The notes beneath the pieces are model-generated. The model had not been told where the DNA came from. It saw only the letters and a list, made by a program, of their open reading frames with translations, and did no database searches. 43,296 nucleotides of DNA. Origin: Flavobacteriales bacterium. Its GTDB lineage: Bacteria; Bacteroidota; Bacteroidia; Flavobacteriales_D; Sanyastnellaceae. Position numbers and translations under genes: made by a program. Location: contig NYSX01000019.1 in NCBI GenBank assembly GCA_002683345.1, positions 1 to 43,296 of the forward strand, read 5' to 3'. Shown in pieces: positions 4,878 to 29,004 of this stretch (the first letter of the stretch is position 1; the number at the start of each line of letters is the position of its first letter).

Positions 4878-6950
4878 TCAGTCGCAATTCAGTCCGAAGA
4901 CCCCCAACCACAACAGCAAATCCGCCGTGTCGACGGTGTCTTGGTTGTCCATGCTTGACGAACATCCCGACTCACATCCGAAATTGGAGAGGATCTGAAG
5001 CATGTCGTTGATGGTGCGGTTGCCGTCCAAGTCAAAATCGCCGGGACACGGGTTGAGTTCGAGGTCGGCAATGACGCCGTCACAATTGTTGTCCATGCCA
5101 TCTTCCAACGCCGGCGCACCAGGGTACATCGTCGCCTCAGAATCGTTGCAGTCACCAGGTGTCAAGACACGCTCGGTCAGTGGAGTGCAGCTCAACGCCA
5201 CCGGCGCATTGGGATTGCCAAAACCGTCGCCATCGGCATCGGCATACCACACCAATTGGGCCGTTCCTTCATCGACTTCGTCGTCACAATCGTTGTTCCA
5301 ACCGTCACAAAGTTCTGGGGCCTGTGGGTAGGTGTTGGCATTCCAATCCTGACAGTCCAAGGGCAACGTCGAAGTGCCGGGCACGTCCCCACAACCCCAC
5401 ACGGGCATGTTGGGATTGCCAAACCCATCTCCGTCGGCATCTTCGTAGTGGGCAAACCAAAGGGCATCTGGAGTCAGCATGTTCAAGGACCAGGTGGAGC
5501 GCTGAGAAGTCAGATTGACGCTCGGCTGCACCCCCGCCAACCCCCAAGCTTCAAAATAGAGCAGGGTGCTTCCTGGCTCCGTGACCGTCCAACTGTTGTC
5601 TTGCCCCGTGGTCATCACCACCCCTTCCACATGGACGTCGATCGGAAAGGCCCACCCCGCTTCGACTTTCAAGGTCATGCTCCACACATTGGGCGTGGGA
5701 ATGGTCCCTGGTTCACACAGGCTGATGGCCACGTTGTCCAAACGCGCAAACTGAGGACGCACCACCCACAGACCTTCGTTGATGGAGGTGAATGCCAAGA
5801 CCCCCTCTTCCTCGCAGAGGACATGGGACCAAGCACCCTGGAACCCCGGTCCAGAACTCTCTTCCAGCGGATCAAAAAATCCGCGTTCCGTCAGGACATT
5901 GGATTGCGGCCAGGCATCGCTGAGCATGCGCAATCCTGCACGATAGTTGCTTTGAAACAACCACTCCCCATGGGTGTATTGGTTGTGGTCTGACGCCGTG
6001 GTCTCTGCTTCGTATATCTCCACTTCTTGGGGATGGTCCAAATCGGTCAAATCAAACACCATCGTCCGCGTGGCTCCCCCTGCGGACGTCTCATCAAGTT
6101 CATCTCCCAAAAAGGCATGGTCGTGGGTGTCAGACACCCAGACCTGGTGTGAAAAGTGCGGATTGGTGTAGGTCGAAACCCCGATGAATTCGACGTCACT
6201 CGCGTCTGTGATGTCCAAAATCCACAGCTTTTCCCCACCAGCGGCAAACAGGATTTCCTTGCCGACGTGCGCGGCGTCTGGACCATTGTAAATCAGAGCC
6301 TGGGCGTCGTGAAAACCACCATACTCGCTCACCCCCCCAATCAAGGACGGAGACAACGGTTCAGACACGTCGAAGATCGCTGCGCCACCGCCCATGGTGG
6401 ACGTTCCCACCTGAATGACTTTGGATGCTGCCTCGAACGCCACCACGTTATGCGCCGTGCTTGGCGAAGAAACCACTGTGTCGGGTGACCATGTCACAGG
6501 ACCATCCAACGGCGACCAAGCTCGAAGTGCTTCAAGGTCCATCACCTGCATGCCGTGGGCTGGCGCTTCACTGACGATGTAGGCGTGGTCATGGACGACT
6601 TTGATGTCGCGCCACAGACTCGCCACCGTTTGGGAGGGCAACTTGCCCATGAAAATGGGCCGCGCGCCAGGCAACATTCGGAACAGCGCAGTCCCGTTTT
6701 CACACCCCACCAGCAAATACGTGATACCCTCCTCTTCGTCGTACCAGGAGGCGATGTCGTTGACTTTTTCCGTCAACATGTCCGCTTTGGGAATGAAAGC
6801 CACCGATTCCATGTTGTGGGACATCACCCCTTCGTCCAAATCGACATCTCCCTGCGCTTGCATGCCGAGCACCGAAAGCCACAGCCCAAAAGCCGTCAAC
6901 AGGCCGGTGAAGCCGAGTCGCGAGGGTGAATCGAACATGGGGTCAGTCAA
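4878..6950 (-). CDS. Secreted choice-of-anchor B family (LVIVD-repeat) protein with two MopE-like metal-binding motifs and dockerin-like C-terminus
   Basis: Signal peptide; LVIVD-type propeller (AAIFDVSEPLSPSLIGGVSEYGGFHDAQ...); two DADGDGFGNPN...DCND...YPxAPExxDGxDNxCDG units; C-terminal CPGDFDLDGNRTINDMLQILSNFG and NQDTVDTADLLLWLGVFG. Confidence 0.85.
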   Translation of the reverse strand: MTDPMFDSPSRLGFTGLLTAFGLWLSVLGMQAQGDVDLDEGVMSHNMESVAFIPKADMLTEKVNDIASWYDEEEGITYLLVGCENGTALFRMLPGARPIFMGKLPSQTVASLWRDIKVVHDHAYIVSEAPAHGMQVMDLEALRAWSPLDGPVTWSPDTVVSSPSTAHNVVAFEAASKVIQVGTSTMGGGAAIFDVSEPLSPSLIGGVSEYGGFHDAQALIYNGPDAAHVGKEILFAAGGEKLWILDITDASDVEFIGVSTYTNPHFSHQVWVSDTHDHAFLGDELDETSAGGATRTMVFDLTDLDHPQEVEIYEAETTASDHNQYTHGEWLFQSNYRAGLRMLSDAWPQSNVLTERGFFDPLEESSGPGFQGAWSHVLCEEEGVLAFTSINEGLWVVRPQFARLDNVAISLCEPGTIPTPNVWSMTLKVEAGWAFPIDVHVEGVVMTTGQDNSWTVTEPGSTLLYFEAWGLAGVQPSVNLTSQRSTWSLNMLTPDALWFAHYEDADGDGFGNPNMPVWGCGDVPGTSTLPLDCQDWNANTYPQAPELCDGWNNDCDDEVDEGTAQLVWYADADGDGFGNPNAPVALSCTPLTERVLTPGDCNDSEATMYPGAPALEDGMDNNCDGVIADLELNPCPGDFDLDGNRTINDMLQILSNFGCESGCSSSMDNQDTVDTADLLLWLGVFGLNCD

Positions 6951-7974: not shown

Positions 7975-9675
7975 TTACTGCACCATGATCTTTTTCAATT
8001 CGAGGTTGCGGCCGTCGTTGACCGTCAACATGTAAGTGCCTGGGGTCAAGTCACCCACGGTCAAGACCGTCGTGCCTTGTGCGAACTCGCGCACAGTGCG
8101 CCCAGTCATGTCGAGAAGCGCCAACGTTGCAGCAGGGTTCACACCCGTCAACGTCACCACATCCTTCGCAGGGTTGGGCATCACATTCCATGCAGACGTT
8201 GCTTCGTTGATGCTATCTGGCGTTGGTGGCAACAACACGGCGTCGATGACGTGCACCACACCGTTGTCAGCCTCAATGTCAGCCACAGTCACCTGCGCGT
8301 CGTTGATGAACACACCCTCGGCGTTGATCGTCACCGTCACATTGCTTCCGAGCAGAGTCTCGATTTCCTGACCGTCGGTCAAATCGCCGCTCATCGCCGC
8401 ACCAGCGACCACGTGGTACTGGAGGATGTCTCCGAGGTTGGGCAACGCCAACAAGTCTTCAGCGGTGATTTCGAGCGCTTCGATCAAGGCTGTGATTGCC
8501 GCATCAGTGGGCGCAAACACAGTGAAAGGACCTTCTGCACTCAACGCCTCCACAAGGCCGGCTTCAATCACAGCTGCCTCAAGCAACGTGTGATCTTCGC
8601 TGTTCACGATGATGTCCACCACTGTGGTGGTCACAGGGGCAGGTGGCAACAACACGGCGTCGATGACGTGCACCACGCCGTTGCCGGCTTCAATGTCCGC
8701 CACAGTCACCTGCGCGTCGTTGATGAACACGTTCATGTCCATGTCGATGGTCACCGTCACGTTCTCACCGAGCAACGTCTCAATTTCCTGACCGTCGCTC
8801 AAGTCGCCGCTCATCGCAGCACCCGCCACCACGTGGTATTGGAGGATTTCGCCGAGGTTGGGCAATGCCAACAAATCTTCGGCCGTGATTTCGAGGGCCT
8901 CGACCAACGCTGTGATGGCCGCATCGGTGGGGGCGAAAACCGTGAATGGCCCCTCTGCGCTCAATGCGTCGACGAGGTTGGCAGCGCCGACGGCTGCCTC
9001 GAGCAATGTGTGGTCGTCGCTATTGACCACGATGTCAACCACCGTTGCGGGGATGCCTGCGCACATGCAGTCTTCACCCACCATGTCATTGACCGTGGCG
9101 TCGTCTCCGTCGTCACACATGTCTCCTGGTAACACGCAAGAACCGTCGTCCGTGTTGGCCACCAAGCTGTAGTTGCACGCCATCATGTCGGTGCAACCGT
9201 TGATGATGGCTGGAACGAGGACCGCATCAATCACGTGAACGACGCCGTTGGTGGCGTCAATGTTCGCCACAGTCACCGTGGCTGAACCGTTGATCATCAC
9301 AGTGTCGCCCATGATGGAAATGGTGACGTCTTGACCGTTGACCGTGGTGACCATTTGGCCATCCGAAAGGTCTGTGCTCATCGCTTCGACCCCCGCAACG
9401 TGGTAGGTCAAAATGTCTCCCAATTGAGGCAGACCGAGCAAATCTGCTGCCTCCACACCAAGTGCGGTCAAGAGGGCGGTGAACGCGGCGTCGGTGGGTG
9501 CAAACACGGTGAACGGTCCTTCCCCTTGCAGGGTCTCCACCAGGCCGGCCTCCACAACGGCAGCTTCAAGTACAGTGTGGTCCTCGCTGTCGACCACGAT
9601 GTCGACTACGGTTTGGCTCCATCCGGAGACCATGAATGTCATTGCAGCGGCAATGAGTGTAAAGAAATGCTTCAT
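7975..9675 (-). CDS. Secreted protein with three fasciclin (FAS1) domains and T9SS type A sorting domain
   Basis: MKHFFTLIAAAMTFMVSGWSQ signal peptide; three copies of TVVDIVVxSxDHTxLEAAV...GPFTVFAPTDAA...VVHVIDAVL; C-term WNVMPNPAKDVVTL...MTGRTVREF...GTYMLTVNDGRNLELKKIMVQ. ORF-track start at 9789 is too early. Confidence 0.93.
   Translation of the reverse strand: MKHFFTLIAAAMTFMVSGWSQTVVDIVVDSEDHTVLEAAVVEAGLVETLQGEGPFTVFAPTDAAFTALLTALGVEAADLLGLPQLGDILTYHVAGVEAMSTDLSDGQMVTTVNGQDVTISIMGDTVMINGSATVTVANIDATNGVVHVIDAVLVPAIINGCTDMMACNYSLVANTDDGSCVLPGDMCDDGDDATVNDMVGEDCMCAGIPATVVDIVVNSDDHTLLEAAVGAANLVDALSAEGPFTVFAPTDAAITALVEALEITAEDLLALPNLGEILQYHVVAGAAMSGDLSDGQEIETLLGENVTVTIDMDMNVFINDAQVTVADIEAGNGVVHVIDAVLLPPAPVTTTVVDIIVNSEDHTLLEAAVIEAGLVEALSAEGPFTVFAPTDAAITALIEALEITAEDLLALPNLGDILQYHVVAGAAMSGDLTDGQEIETLLGSNVTVTINAEGVFINDAQVTVADIEADNGVVHVIDAVLLPPTPDSINEATSAWNVMPNPAKDVVTLTGVNPAATLALLDMTGRTVREFAQGTTVLTVGDLTPGTYMLTVNDGRNLELKKIMVQ
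8212..9051 (-). repeat. Two near-identical FAS1 domain copies at the DNA level (about 8212-8634 and 8636-9051)
   Basis: Long shared stretches such as GGTGGCAACAACACGGCGTCGATGACGTGCACCAC around 8225 and again around 8643; encoded domains are mostly identical. Confidence 0.8.
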
Positions 9676-9834
9676 AAGACTGAATAATGGTTTTGGGTTT
9701 GGAGGGAGAACAGCACTTAGAAAAAAAAGTTCGCGGCCGTTGAACCTTTCTTCAGATGGCCTGTTGGTGTAGGTGTGAATGCAAAACATTCACGAGATCG
9801 TAAGGTGTTTTGATCCAGTTTTTGGAACAAAGGG

Positions 9835-24825: not shown

Positions 24826-27800
24826 TCACTCTTCGCAGTACGTTCCGTACACGAGCAAGAAATCAAGCAAGTCGTTCAGCTGCACGAGGCCACTTCCGTC
24901 GAGGTCTCCAGGGCATGAGCTGCCTGTGAGGTCAAACTCACACGACCCATCGTCATCCGTGGCCGCCTCGTTGTAGTTGTTGGCCAAGGCGTAGGTGCAG
25001 CCAAGAACTTCACACGAGCCATCGTCGTCCGTCGCCGCAGGGTCGTAGTTCGTGGCGTCGGGGTTGGTGCAACCCAAGACTTCGTTTTCATCACAAACCC
25101 CATCCCCATCGGCGTCGTTGACGCACGTGCCGTCGCAGTTCAGTCCAGGCTCAGGGAATTCACACGATCCGTCGTCCAACGTGGCGTCTTCCTCGTAGTT
25201 GCACGCCGTGGCATCCGTGCAACCGGCCACCCCAAACACGCACGAGCCGTCGTCGTACTCTGCCGCTGGATTGTAGTTGATGGCCTCTGCATCCGTGCAT
25301 CCACATGCGTTTCCGAACCCATCTGCGTCGAACGTGCCGGCACCAGAGAATGTCCAGCTCAACTTGAACTCTTCTTGTCCGTCACCTTCTGGGAAGATTT
25401 GGGCGTTCACGGTGCCAAGCAACGCACCTTCGGTTGTGATTTGCATGACCAACACACGACCCTCCTCTCCGGCGTTCGCATTCGTCGCCGGTCCTGCCAC
25501 GTACCAAATGCCGCCCACGGCATCTGAAATGTCCAAGTCTGCACCTCCAGTCGTGAAGAAATCCGCAATGGTCAACGGTGCCTCCACCGACTCGGCCAAG
25601 TCTGGATTGACAGAGCCCGACGCAGCTTCAGATGCGGGTCCTGTCAAACCGATGGTTGCGTAGGAATCGTCGGCCATTTCGGGGTAGAGGTCCACAAAGG
25701 CTGCGGCCAAACCAGAGGCATTCCAAGACGTGTTCAATTCGCTGTTGTAAATGCCGGCAGGAGCCTGGATGCTCAAGGCCTCTTCATTGTTCCCGTAGAC
25801 CGCACTGAGTTTGTCGGTTGCGTTGACCATGTTCACGTAGAACCGGTACGTCGTGGCACCTGACTGCACCGCCGCGGATGCCTCGACACTCAGCGTGTAA
25901 GCCGGAGCGTCCTCGCCGCCACAATCGCAGTACACACAAGATCCATCGTCCTGGGTGGCAGCCTCGTCGTAGTTGCATGCAAAGGCATCCGTGCAACCGA
26001 GCACGTCAAAGACACAGGAACCATCGTCGTAATCGGCGTTGGGATCAAAGTTCACCGCTGCGTCATCTGTGCAACCGCAGGACACGGTGGGTTCTTCTCC
26101 GCCAAACTCTCCAACCCCATCGAAGGCCACGTTCAACTGTTGTTGATCGGCGCCCACACCGAGGGGGAAGACCTGGTAGCTGATTTGGCCTGACACGTTG
26201 CCTGACGTCGTCACTTGCATGATCAACACGCGGCCATTGGCATCGGCCAACCCATTGGACGCCGTGTTCAAAATGTACCACGAGGCACCCGTCAAGGTGT
26301 TGCTCAACAACGAGGTGGCCCCGTCATTCAAGAAGAAAGGCGTGATCATTTGGTTCGCGTCTTCCACGATGCTGGGGTCTGCGGCACCAGCCTGACCTGA
26401 GGTGGAAGCCGGCCCTTCCAATCCAATGGTGGCATAGGTGTCCGCCGCGAGCTCAGGGAATGCGGGCAAGAACGCGGGGTTGATGCCCGACGCGTTCCAG
26501 CTTGAGTTCAAGGAGCTGTTGAACACTCCTTCGGGGGCACTCACCTCCAAGGTGGACTCGTCGTTGCCAAACACCGCGCTGAAACGGTCGCCCGCATCCG
26601 GAAGGGTCACGTAGAAGCGGTAGGTCGTCATGCCTGAAACCACTGCTGGGGCTCCCTCAACCACCAAGGTGTATGGTGTGGGTGGACGCTGGCAAGAACA
26701 GAAGTCGCACGAGCCATCGTCCTCCGTGGCTTCGGCATTGTAGTTGCACGCCAAAGCATCCGTGCAGCCCGACACCACACAAGAGGTGTACTCGCACGAG
26801 CCGTCGTCCTCTGTGGCTTCGGCGTTGTAATTGCACGCCATGTCATCCGTACAACCCGATACCACACATGAGGTGTACTCACATGTGCCGTCGTCCTCTG
26901 TGGCGTCGGCGCTGTAGTTACAGGCATCGGGGGCCGTGCATCCAAGCACTTCGATTTCGTCACAAACCCCATCCTCATCGTCATCGTTGAGGCAGTTGCC
27001 CTCGCAGTCCAAGTAGTCCTCTTCAGGATAAGTGCAGGTGCCATCTTCCACCGCCGCCGAGGGATCGTAGTTGCATGCGTCAGCGTCGGTGCATCCCTCC
27101 TCCACTTCATCACAGATGCCATCGCCGTCGGCGTCGTTCAAGCAATTGCCCTCGCAGTCCAAGAGCGGTTCCGCAAACTCGCATGATCCGTCGTCCACCG
27201 TGGCGTCTTCCTCGTAGTTGCACGCCTCCGCGTCTGTGCATCCCGCCACATCGAAGAGGCAAGAACCGTCGTCGTAGGTGGCCTCCGGATCGTAATTGCT
27301 CGCGGCATCGTCTGTGCATCCGCATGCCACAGTCGGCTCGTCTCCTCCGAAGATGCCTTCTCCGTCAAACGCCACATTCAACTGCTGCTGATCCGCTCCG
27401 AAGCCGAGTGGGAAAACTTGGTAGCTGATTTGGCCTGAGACGTTGCCTGCCGTCGTCACCTGCATGATCAACACGCGGTTGTCGTCGTTGGCGAGGCCGT
27501 TGGAAGCCGTGTTCAACACGTACCAGGACGCCCCAGTCAAGGTGTTGCTTTCCATCAACGTGGCTCCGTCGGTCAGGAAAAACGGCGTGATCATTTGGTT
27601 CGCGTCTTCCACGATGCTGGGGTCTGCGGCACCCGCCTGTCCTGAGGTGGAAGCCGGCCCTTCCAATCCAACCGTGGCGTAGGTGTCCGCGGCCAATTCT
27701 GGGAATGCGGGCAAGAACGCGGGGTTGACGCCCGACGCGTTCCAGCTCGAATTGAAGGTGCTGTTGTACACCCCGTCAGGTGCGCTCACCTCGAGGTTGG

Positions 27801-28779
27801 ATTCGTTGTTGCCAAACACCGCGCTGAATCGATCGCCTTCGTCAGGAAGGGTCACGTAGAAGCGGTAGGTCGTCATGCCTGCAACCACTGCAGGTGCCCC
27901 TTCCACCACCAAGGTGTAGGGTGTGGCCGCACGCTGGCAAGAACAAAAATCACACGACCCATCCTCTTCCGTGGCCGTCGCATCGTAGTTGCATGCGAGT
28001 TCGTCGGTGCAGCCAGACACGACGCATGACGTGAATTCACACGACCCATCGTCTTCGGTCGCTTCTTCGTTGAAGTTGCACGCCATGGCATCCGTGCACC
28101 CCAAAACGGCCTCGTCACCTCCGCCGAAGGTGCCGGCACCGTCAAACGCCACACTCAACTGCTGTTGGTCCGCGCCAATTCCGAGAGGAAAGACCTGGAA
28201 GTTCATTTGGCCTGACACGTTGCCGGAAGAAGTCACCTGCATCAACAAGACGCGCAAATCTGAATCGGGCAATCCGTTGGAAGCGGTGTTCAAAATGTAC
28301 CACGAGGCGCCGGTCAGGGTGTTGCTCAAAAGCGACGTGGCTCCATCGTTCAAGAAGAACGGTGTGATGGGCTGGTTGCTGTCCTCCACAATGCTGGGAT
28401 CGGCCGCGCCCTCCAGTCCTGAGGATGATGCGGGACCTTCCAAACCAATGGTGGCGTAGGTGTCGTCCACCAATTCCGGGAACACCGGCACAAACGCGGG
28501 GTTGATGCCCGACGCATTCCAGCTCGAATTGAAAGTGCTGTTGAATGCCCCTTCAGGCGCTTCAACAGAGAGCGTGTACTCGTTGTTGCCAAACACGGCA
28601 CTCATTCGGTCGGATGCGTCGTTCATGTTGACGTAAAAACGGTACTGCGTCATCCCCTCCGTGACGGCCGGCGTGGCCTCTACGGTGAGCGAAAAATCTT
28701 GGGCGAATCCAAGCACGGAGACGCCAATCGTCGCCACGAGGGCGCAGCAGGCAGTCTTGACAAAGCGAGAATGAATCAT
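24826..28779 (-). CDS. Large secreted repeat protein: four homologous domains, 14 GCTD...DDGSC cysteine modules, Ca-binding-like DADGDGxCDE segments, dockerin-like C-terminus
   Basis: Start at 28779 gives MIHSRFVKTACCALVATIGVSVLGFAQ signal peptide (ORF-track start 28998 is too early). Repeats are directly visible in the translation. Confidence 0.9.
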   Translation of the reverse strand: MIHSRFVKTACCALVATIGVSVLGFAQDFSLTVEATPAVTEGMTQYRFYVNMNDASDRMSAVFGNNEYTLSVEAPEGAFNSTFNSSWNASGINPAFVPVFPELVDDTYATIGLEGPASSSGLEGAADPSIVEDSNQPITPFFLNDGATSLLSNTLTGASWYILNTASNGLPDSDLRVLLMQVTSSGNVSGQMNFQVFPLGIGADQQQLSVAFDGAGTFGGGDEAVLGCTDAMACNFNEEATEDDGSCEFTSCVVSGCTDELACNYDATATEEDGSCDFCSCQRAATPYTLVVEGAPAVVAGMTTYRFYVTLPDEGDRFSAVFGNNESNLEVSAPDGVYNSTFNSSWNASGVNPAFLPAFPELAADTYATVGLEGPASTSGQAGAADPSIVEDANQMITPFFLTDGATLMESNTLTGASWYVLNTASNGLANDDNRVLIMQVTTAGNVSGQISYQVFPLGFGADQQQLNVAFDGEGIFGGDEPTVACGCTDDAASNYDPEATYDDGSCLFDVAGCTDAEACNYEEDATVDDGSCEFAEPLLDCEGNCLNDADGDGICDEVEEGCTDADACNYDPSAAVEDGTCTYPEEDYLDCEGNCLNDDDEDGVCDEIEVLGCTAPDACNYSADATEDDGTCEYTSCVVSGCTDDMACNYNAEATEDDGSCEYTSCVVSGCTDALACNYNAEATEDDGSCDFCSCQRPPTPYTLVVEGAPAVVSGMTTYRFYVTLPDAGDRFSAVFGNDESTLEVSAPEGVFNSSLNSSWNASGINPAFLPAFPELAADTYATIGLEGPASTSGQAGAADPSIVEDANQMITPFFLNDGATSLLSNTLTGASWYILNTASNGLADANGRVLIMQVTTSGNVSGQISYQVFPLGVGADQQQLNVAFDGVGEFGGEEPTVSCGCTDDAAVNFDPNADYDDGSCVFDVLGCTDAFACNYDEAATQDDGSCVYCDCGGEDAPAYTLSVEASAAVQSGATTYRFYVNMVNATDKLSAVYGNNEEALSIQAPAGIYNSELNTSWNASGLAAAFVDLYPEMADDSYATIGLTGPASEAASGSVNPDLAESVEAPLTIADFFTTGGADLDISDAVGGIWYVAGPATNANAGEEGRVLVMQITTEGALLGTVNAQIFPEGDGQEEFKLSWTFSGAGTFDADGFGNACGCTDAEAINYNPAAEYDDGSCVFGVAGCTDATACNYEEDATLDDGSCEFPEPGLNCDGTCVNDADGDGVCDENEVLGCTNPDATNYDPAATDDDGSCEVLGCTYALANNYNEAATDDDGSCEFDLTGSSCPGDLDGSGLVQLNDLLDFLLVYGTYCEE
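25304..28698 (-). repeat. Four intragenic copies of a ~195-aa domain (about 28112-28698, 27326-27927, 26079-26685, 25304-25908)
   Basis: Each copy has TxYRFYVxxxxxxDxxSAVxGNxE...SWNASGxxxAF...YATxGLxGPAS...; copies 2 and 3 share long identical DNA, e.g. GTGATCATTTGGTTCGCGTCTTCCACGATGCTGGGGTCTGCGGCACC near 26343 and near 27589. Confidence 0.9.
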
Positions 28780-29004
28780 GCGAATGAAGATTAAACCGGT
28801 GTAATGGTCTACCAAAATCGGGATTCTTCCGGTCAAACCCCAAACATTATACAAGTAAATCCGGTTTTGGTCTCTTGAGGTTTCGCACAAATCGTCCTGC
28901 GACATTCTGAAAAATTGTGCCCCCCAAGAAAGGCTGTACGTCGTGACGTTTTGGGAACTTTGACATCCTAAATCACACCGCGCGTTTGCGCCACACATTC
29001 ATCC

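Follow-up and report, generated by a model that had tools for sequence, protein, structure and literature searches.

The stretch of DNA analysed here (the window, 43,296 nucleotides) comprises positions 1 to 43,296 of contig NYSX01000019.1 from the Flavobacteriales bacterium assembly GCA_002683345.1 (Sanyastnellaceae), a metagenome-assembled genome (MAG) of 100 contigs and 1.85 Mb that is 73% complete. The element in question is a gene on its minus strand for a large secreted mosaic protein, referred to below as the window protein. The open reading frame (ORF) runs uninterrupted from 24826 to 28998 (1390 amino acids); taking the methionine at 28779 as the start gives a product of 1317 amino acids with a signal peptide (MIHSRFVKTACCALVATIGVSVLGFA/Q, ending FA/Q). 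The original prediction, made from the letters of the window, had described a protein of this length with a signal peptide, four copies of an unnamed domain (the A domain), 14 GCTD...DGSC cysteine modules and a C-terminal tail; it gave no strand, and all of these parts were recovered where it had placed them (Table 1). They are arranged in the order A1, two GCTD modules, A2, six GCTD modules with two thrombospondin-3-like modules among them, A3, two GCTD modules, A4, four GCTD modules with one further thrombospondin-3-like module, and the tail.

Table 1. Features of the window protein and their positions in the window
Feature	Position	Strand	Remark
Secreted mosaic protein, 1317 aa from M at 28779	24826..28779	-	ORF open to 28998
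Sec signal peptide, predicted cleavage before Gln	28708..28779	-	Read from sequence
A domain 1	28102..28707	-	
Two GCTD cysteine modules	27952..28101	-	28039-28101, 27952-28014
A domain 2	27322..27936	-	AlphaFold model, predicted local distance difference test (pLDDT) 95.4
Six GCTD modules	26707..27321	-	27259-27321, 27181-27243, 27034-27096, 26881-26943, 26794-26856, 26707-26769
Thrombospondin-3-like acidic module	27106..27156	-	CEGNCLNDADGDGICDE
Thrombospondin-3-like acidic module	26956..27006	-	CEGNCLNDDDEDGVCDE
A domain 3	26077..26691	-	
Two GCTD modules	25936..26076	-	26014-26076, 25936-25998
A domain 4	25303..25920	-	Most divergent copy; part of second AlphaFold model
Four GCTD modules	24940..25302	-	25240-25302, 25162-25224, 25012-25074, 24940-25002
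Thrombospondin-3-like acidic module	25087..25137	-	CDGTCVNDADGDGVCDE
C-terminal dockerin-like tail	24835..24915	-	CPGDLDGSGLVQLNDLLDFLLVYGTYC; 2 residues before stop

The A domains are ~202-206 amino acids each, and A2, A3 and A4 share 71%, 75% and 46% identity, respectively, with A1. The three thrombospondin-3-like modules follow the pattern C-x-G-x-C-x-N-D-x-D-x-D-G-x-C-D-E. As had been proposed, the globular A domains are joined by acidic, Cys-rich modules: the mature protein contains 60 Cys, all of them outside the A domains, and 220 acidic versus 15 basic residues, and because of this Cys distribution and charge imbalance its architecture is far beyond chance. No significant match was found for the whole protein in Pfam, NCBIfam, PHROGs or the sequences of the PDB. 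The C-terminal sorting domain (CTD) of the type IX secretion system (T9SS; PF18962/TIGR04183) was not found in it by Pfam or NCBIfam, nor were recognised cohesins or cellulose-binding modules by Pfam, so that the protein does not qualify as a cellulosomal scaffoldin. Because the MAG is fragmented into 100 contigs and the repeats are up to ~85% identical at the DNA level, it was considered whether the repeat array represents several mis-assembled genes. This is very unlikely, to the point of being negligible, because matching versions occur in other MAGs: the C-terminal section recurs in Bacter6 (94% identity), UBA1112 (79%) and casp15-mb.151 (78%), and multi-A proteins with varying numbers of A copies are found in related MAGs. 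The ORF is also free of interruptions, and the repeats have diverged among themselves.

The A domain, which the original prediction had called unnamed, beta-rich and secreted, has no recognisable family. Pfam scans of 77 and of 35 A domains gave no match, cohesin (PF00963) included, and searches of NCBIfam, PHROGs and PDB sequences with the domain alone or as a profile returned no family either. Profile searches of the PDB with A-domain alignments yielded chance matches only and were set aside. An AlphaFold2 model built from 77 sequences (pLDDT 95.4; predicted template modelling score, pTM, 0.91) has 11 strands and short helices, in keeping with a mainly beta fold, and found nothing in a viral structure library. 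Foldseek likewise assigned the domain to no characterised family, an assignment that would have counted against the original prediction. The largest group among its weak matches, by our own count over the top 50 rows for each model, is made up of cohesins, mostly of type II (11 of 50 rows for the first model and 17 of 50 for the model that includes A4), and the fungal adhesin Als3 is also among them. A cohesin-like nature of the A domain is, on these predicted structures, only a lead. The second model, which spans A4, cysteine modules and the tail, has a pTM of 0.62 with low confidence over the last 30 residues, and is silent on whether the tail docks to A4. True Pfam cohesins are sporadic in the Flavobacteriales (17 of 199 genomes of the order, e.g. 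L134 and L139); Pfam detected none in the genome of the window, which leaves its tails without a recognised partner.

The tail of the window protein consists of a single dockerin-type calcium loop bracketed by Cys, which bears out its earlier description as dockerin-like. A profile search of the same genome with 16 tails gave 86 matches, and at least 48 proteins have a tail that is separated from the stop by 0-6 residues. Across these 48 tails Asp is present at loop positions 1 and 12 in all and at position 5 in 45, where the window protein has Ser. The tails of the genome fit the dockerin pattern of a loop D-x-[D/N]-x-D-G-x5-D followed by a helix, the latter being predicted with low confidence at residues 348-358 of the second model. 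Only one loop is present in the window protein, and two in roughly half of the tail proteins of its genome. The Pfam model Dockerin_1 (PF00404) does not detect the window tail; its cut-off is passed by two carriers, one other protein of the same genome and the tail protein of the distant cluster L227. In a scan of 43 carriers, the domains recognised by Pfam included reprolysins, fasciclin, CotH, chloroperoxidase-type domains, subtilase, arylsulfotransferase, amylase-type CBM48, an esterase and others. Within the window, tail-like matches (E 0.002-0.009) also occur at the C terminus of the product of 4881-6950 (minus strand), a second, weaker tail protein with MopE-type copper-binding motifs.

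In distant genomes, A domains are gathered in one cluster, in which 3-5 A-domain genes are accompanied by that of a TonB-dependent receptor and, in most cases, one for a FISUMP lipoprotein. The usual order is an A-protein (~270 aa), an A-protein with a T9SS CTD (~365 aa), the TonB-dependent receptor (~1020 aa), a further A-protein with a CTD (~445 aa), the Fib_succ_major (FISUMP) lipoprotein, often a small outer-membrane beta-barrel, a beta-helix protein and a large A-protein. The term beta-helix is our own reading of the sequence, as Pfam has no name for this protein. The ~365-aa proteins of the minimal cluster comprise one A domain and a T9SS CTD and presumably represent surface-anchored A domains. 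Of the 25 clusters examined, 22, which come from 12 GTDB families, have a beta-helix protein that ends in a tail with a complete loop, D-x-[D/N/T]-x-D-[G/D]-x5-D. In a 23rd (L227), an unrelated SprB-repeat protein encoded between two A-genes ends in a tail that scores above the Dockerin_1 cut-off. Since this carrier is unrelated to the beta-helix protein, it is the tail itself that goes with A. Outside the cluster core, two paralogues of the beta-helix protein terminate in sequence resembling a T9SS CTD, and for one of them NCBIfam confirms the T9SS domain. In the genome of the window, two adjacent beta-helix proteins (C9; L166:450-2468 and L166:2774-4873), homologous to the cluster tail protein and each with GCTD modules and a tail, are encoded away from an intact cluster. 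Two cluster A-proteins themselves end in tails in one case from the family of the window (G009; L231), and these are a plausible intermediate toward the window protein.

Searches for the same elements across genomes showed that A domains occur in 65 of the 66 genomes of the window's own family and in 10 others among the 199 genomes of the order. A broader A profile detected the family in 40 of the 345 Bacteroidia genomes scanned, with members in families far outside the order; the closest named records are MAGs of Flavobacteriales, of which several are marine. The genome of the window contains at least 33 A-domain, 130 GCTD and 47 T9SS sorting-domain matches, scored match counts being lower bounds. 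As judged from 74 A-domain ORFs that have a stop codon upstream, the first A domain mostly starts within ~60 residues of the ORF start. A-domain proteins end in a tail (15) or otherwise (37), the alternatives including a T9SS sorting domain, and T9SS-exported relatives carry SprB repeats. Both A and tail are present in 64 of the 199 genomes, A only in 11, tail only in 2 and neither in 122 (Fisher p = 8e-38), and the association persists outside the window's family (p = 2e-7). Within that family, A domains and tails have multiplied genome-wide and in proportion, with a genus-level Spearman correlation between A per Mb and tail per Mb of 0.79 (19 genera, first-look candidate counts). The corresponding value for A and T9SS CTD density is -0.36, which is not significant. 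The absence of the tail from some A genomes is partly a threshold effect, as G104 had none in the genome scan, yet has a tail protein in its cluster. Tail and T9SS CTD densities are negatively related, significantly across genomes but not across genera; the small, tail-rich genomes of genera g1, g5, g7, g12 and g13 of the family have T9SS sorting-domain densities ~half to two thirds of those in most other genera. The original prediction had included neither the genome-wide multiplication of the A domain and of the tail nor the conserved Bacteroidia cluster with its nearly constant tail-bearing protein.

The GCTD...DDGSC module, for which no literature was found in the open literature, is detected in the window protein by no Pfam or NCBIfam model. 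It is reused throughout the genome, the 130 matches falling in ~35 ORFs, many of which encode large secreted proteins, and the modules of the window protein form small structured Cys modules in the second predicted structure. At 7978-9789 of the window (minus strand) lies a gene for a fasciclin-repeat protein with a T9SS sorting domain and a GCTD-like match at 9136-9213. A GCTD-like tandem (~40% identity) was also seen in the marine cyanophage Synechococcus phage S-CAM3 (NC_031906.1:36820-36954), in a protein annotated as virion structural. A domains and GCTD modules further occur together on a contig labelled Euryarchaeota archaeon SP189 (L079; PBNL01000044.1), which is probably a mis-binned Flavobacteriales contig.

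The linkage of tail and A genes, their joint amplification, the dockerin loop and the position of cohesins as the commonest weak structural neighbours suggest a receptor-tag pair made up of the A domain and the tail. These lines of evidence are partly independent because the gene linkage owed nothing to the fold comparison. The A domain would then be the receptor of the tail, through a calcium-dependent contact similar to that of cohesin and dockerin, and A-proteins held on the surface by their T9SS CTD would capture secreted proteins that end in a tail, enzymes and others alike. The window protein may serve as an adaptor that docks via its own tail and offers up to four A sites on disulfide-stapled spacers. 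We give an even chance to the proposal that it belongs, as a scaffold-like component, to an undescribed system of surface assembly in the Bacteroidia, in which A and tail would act as cohesin-dockerin-like partners. The wider proposal, which we put forward more tentatively and at somewhat below even chance, is that the Bacteroidia own a second cohesin-dockerin-like system, independently evolved or extremely diverged, with a small ancestral cluster that includes a TonB-dependent receptor; in one marine family it would have expanded into a general means of surface display for 48 or more secreted proteins, with scaffolds of several A domains, the window protein among them.

Two other readings of these data have to be weighed. 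The tail could be an alternative C-terminal sorting or anchoring tag, parallel to the T9SS CTD and read by the secretion machinery or by another receptor, with A a separate module at the N-terminal tip for an external ligand and a shared secretome behind their co-occurrence. The near-terminal position of the tail in all 48 proteins speaks for this, as does the first A domain, which usually begins close to the N terminus, at the far end from a C-terminal anchor. Proteins of one beta-helix family terminate in either a tail or a T9SS CTD, and the A-proteins likewise vary in their ends; such a swap fits a sorting tag equally well. The negative relation between tail and CTD densities across genomes, although not significant between genera, points the same way. 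By itself, however, a sorting tag leaves unaccounted for the presence of the tail beside A-genes in 23 of 25 clusters and the joint rise in the numbers of both, and the tail has a dockerin calcium loop and did not resemble any known sorting domain in the libraries scanned. We consider this reading, the main rival, doubtful, though a real possibility. The original prediction itself had favoured a surface fibre, adhesin or matrix protein of extended shape, possibly stiffened by calcium; on this view, A would bind an external ligand, the GCTD modules would form a stalk and the tail would be a mere cap. Its acidic, Cys-rich repeat layout was recovered, the cysteine modules are predicted to be small and structured, and Als3 among the weak Foldseek matches and the SprB repeats of T9SS-exported relatives also speak for it. 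A free-standing role ignores the conserved cluster and a tail that at least 47 further proteins of the genome share, and is unlikely; the cluster, together with the genome-wide multiplication of A and tail, argues for a surface-assembly system of receptor and tag rather than a free-standing fibre or adhesin.

Several observations weigh against the receptor-tag proposal. What argues for binding of the tail by A is gene linkage, co-variation, sequence and structure prediction, and the co-variation is confounded by phylogeny, the genomes being non-independent, and by the use of lower-bound match counts. Foldseek of the A models against the PDB gave no match at E<=1e-3, the cohesin matches being weak (E>0.04; template modelling (TM) score <=0.40, under the usual 0.5), and profile-profile comparison of A, with the narrow and the broad profile, against ten cohesins from related genomes gave probabilities of <1%. 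Many tails have one calcium loop, against two in classical dockerins. Two of the 25 clusters (L228 and L229) have no tail protein, and those of the ancestral type encode 3-5 A-proteins for a single tail protein. The proposal also leaves unexplained how tail proteins that lack a T9SS CTD cross the outer membrane.

As in cohesin-dockerin scaffoldins (PF00963, PF00404), multiple beta-rich domains are combined on a secreted protein that itself ends dockerin-like, a dockerin-like calcium loop is found C-terminally on many secreted enzymes of the genome, and among the weak structural neighbours of A, type II cohesins are the most frequent. Unlike in those systems, A has no sequence or profile likeness to cohesin and a fold similarity below TM 0.5, the tail often has one calcium loop, not two, the hosts are marine Bacteroidia, not cellulolytic anaerobes, and the contact of A with the tail is putative. 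Many A-proteins, those of the conserved cluster included, resemble T9SS cargo (PF18962 / TIGR04183) in ending in a sorting domain and in a multi-domain surface layout with SprB repeats, whereas the window protein ends in a dockerin-like tail instead. With dockerin type I repeats outside cellulosomes the tails share the loop D-x-[N/D]-x-D-G-x5-D followed by a hydrophobic helix, and two carriers score above the Dockerin_1 cut-off; the window tail differs in being missed by that model, bracketed by Cys and placed at the very C terminus, in a genome in which Pfam finds no cohesin. In the portions of the open literature seen on dockerins with T9SS, Flavobacteriales or TonB, nothing described an A-tail system, and no description of the A family, the Bacteroidia cluster or the genome-wide C-terminal tag was found there, in Pfam or in NCBIfam.

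Even if A and tail do not bind each other, an undescribed family of domains, a gene cluster conserved in the Bacteroidia and a C-terminal tag used throughout a genome have been defined here. If A does capture the tail, this would explain how dozens of secreted proteins without a T9SS sorting domain are retained at the surface of a marine lineage known here only from MAGs, and the two would constitute a non-cellulosomal receptor-tag pair that is new to biology and a possible display tool.

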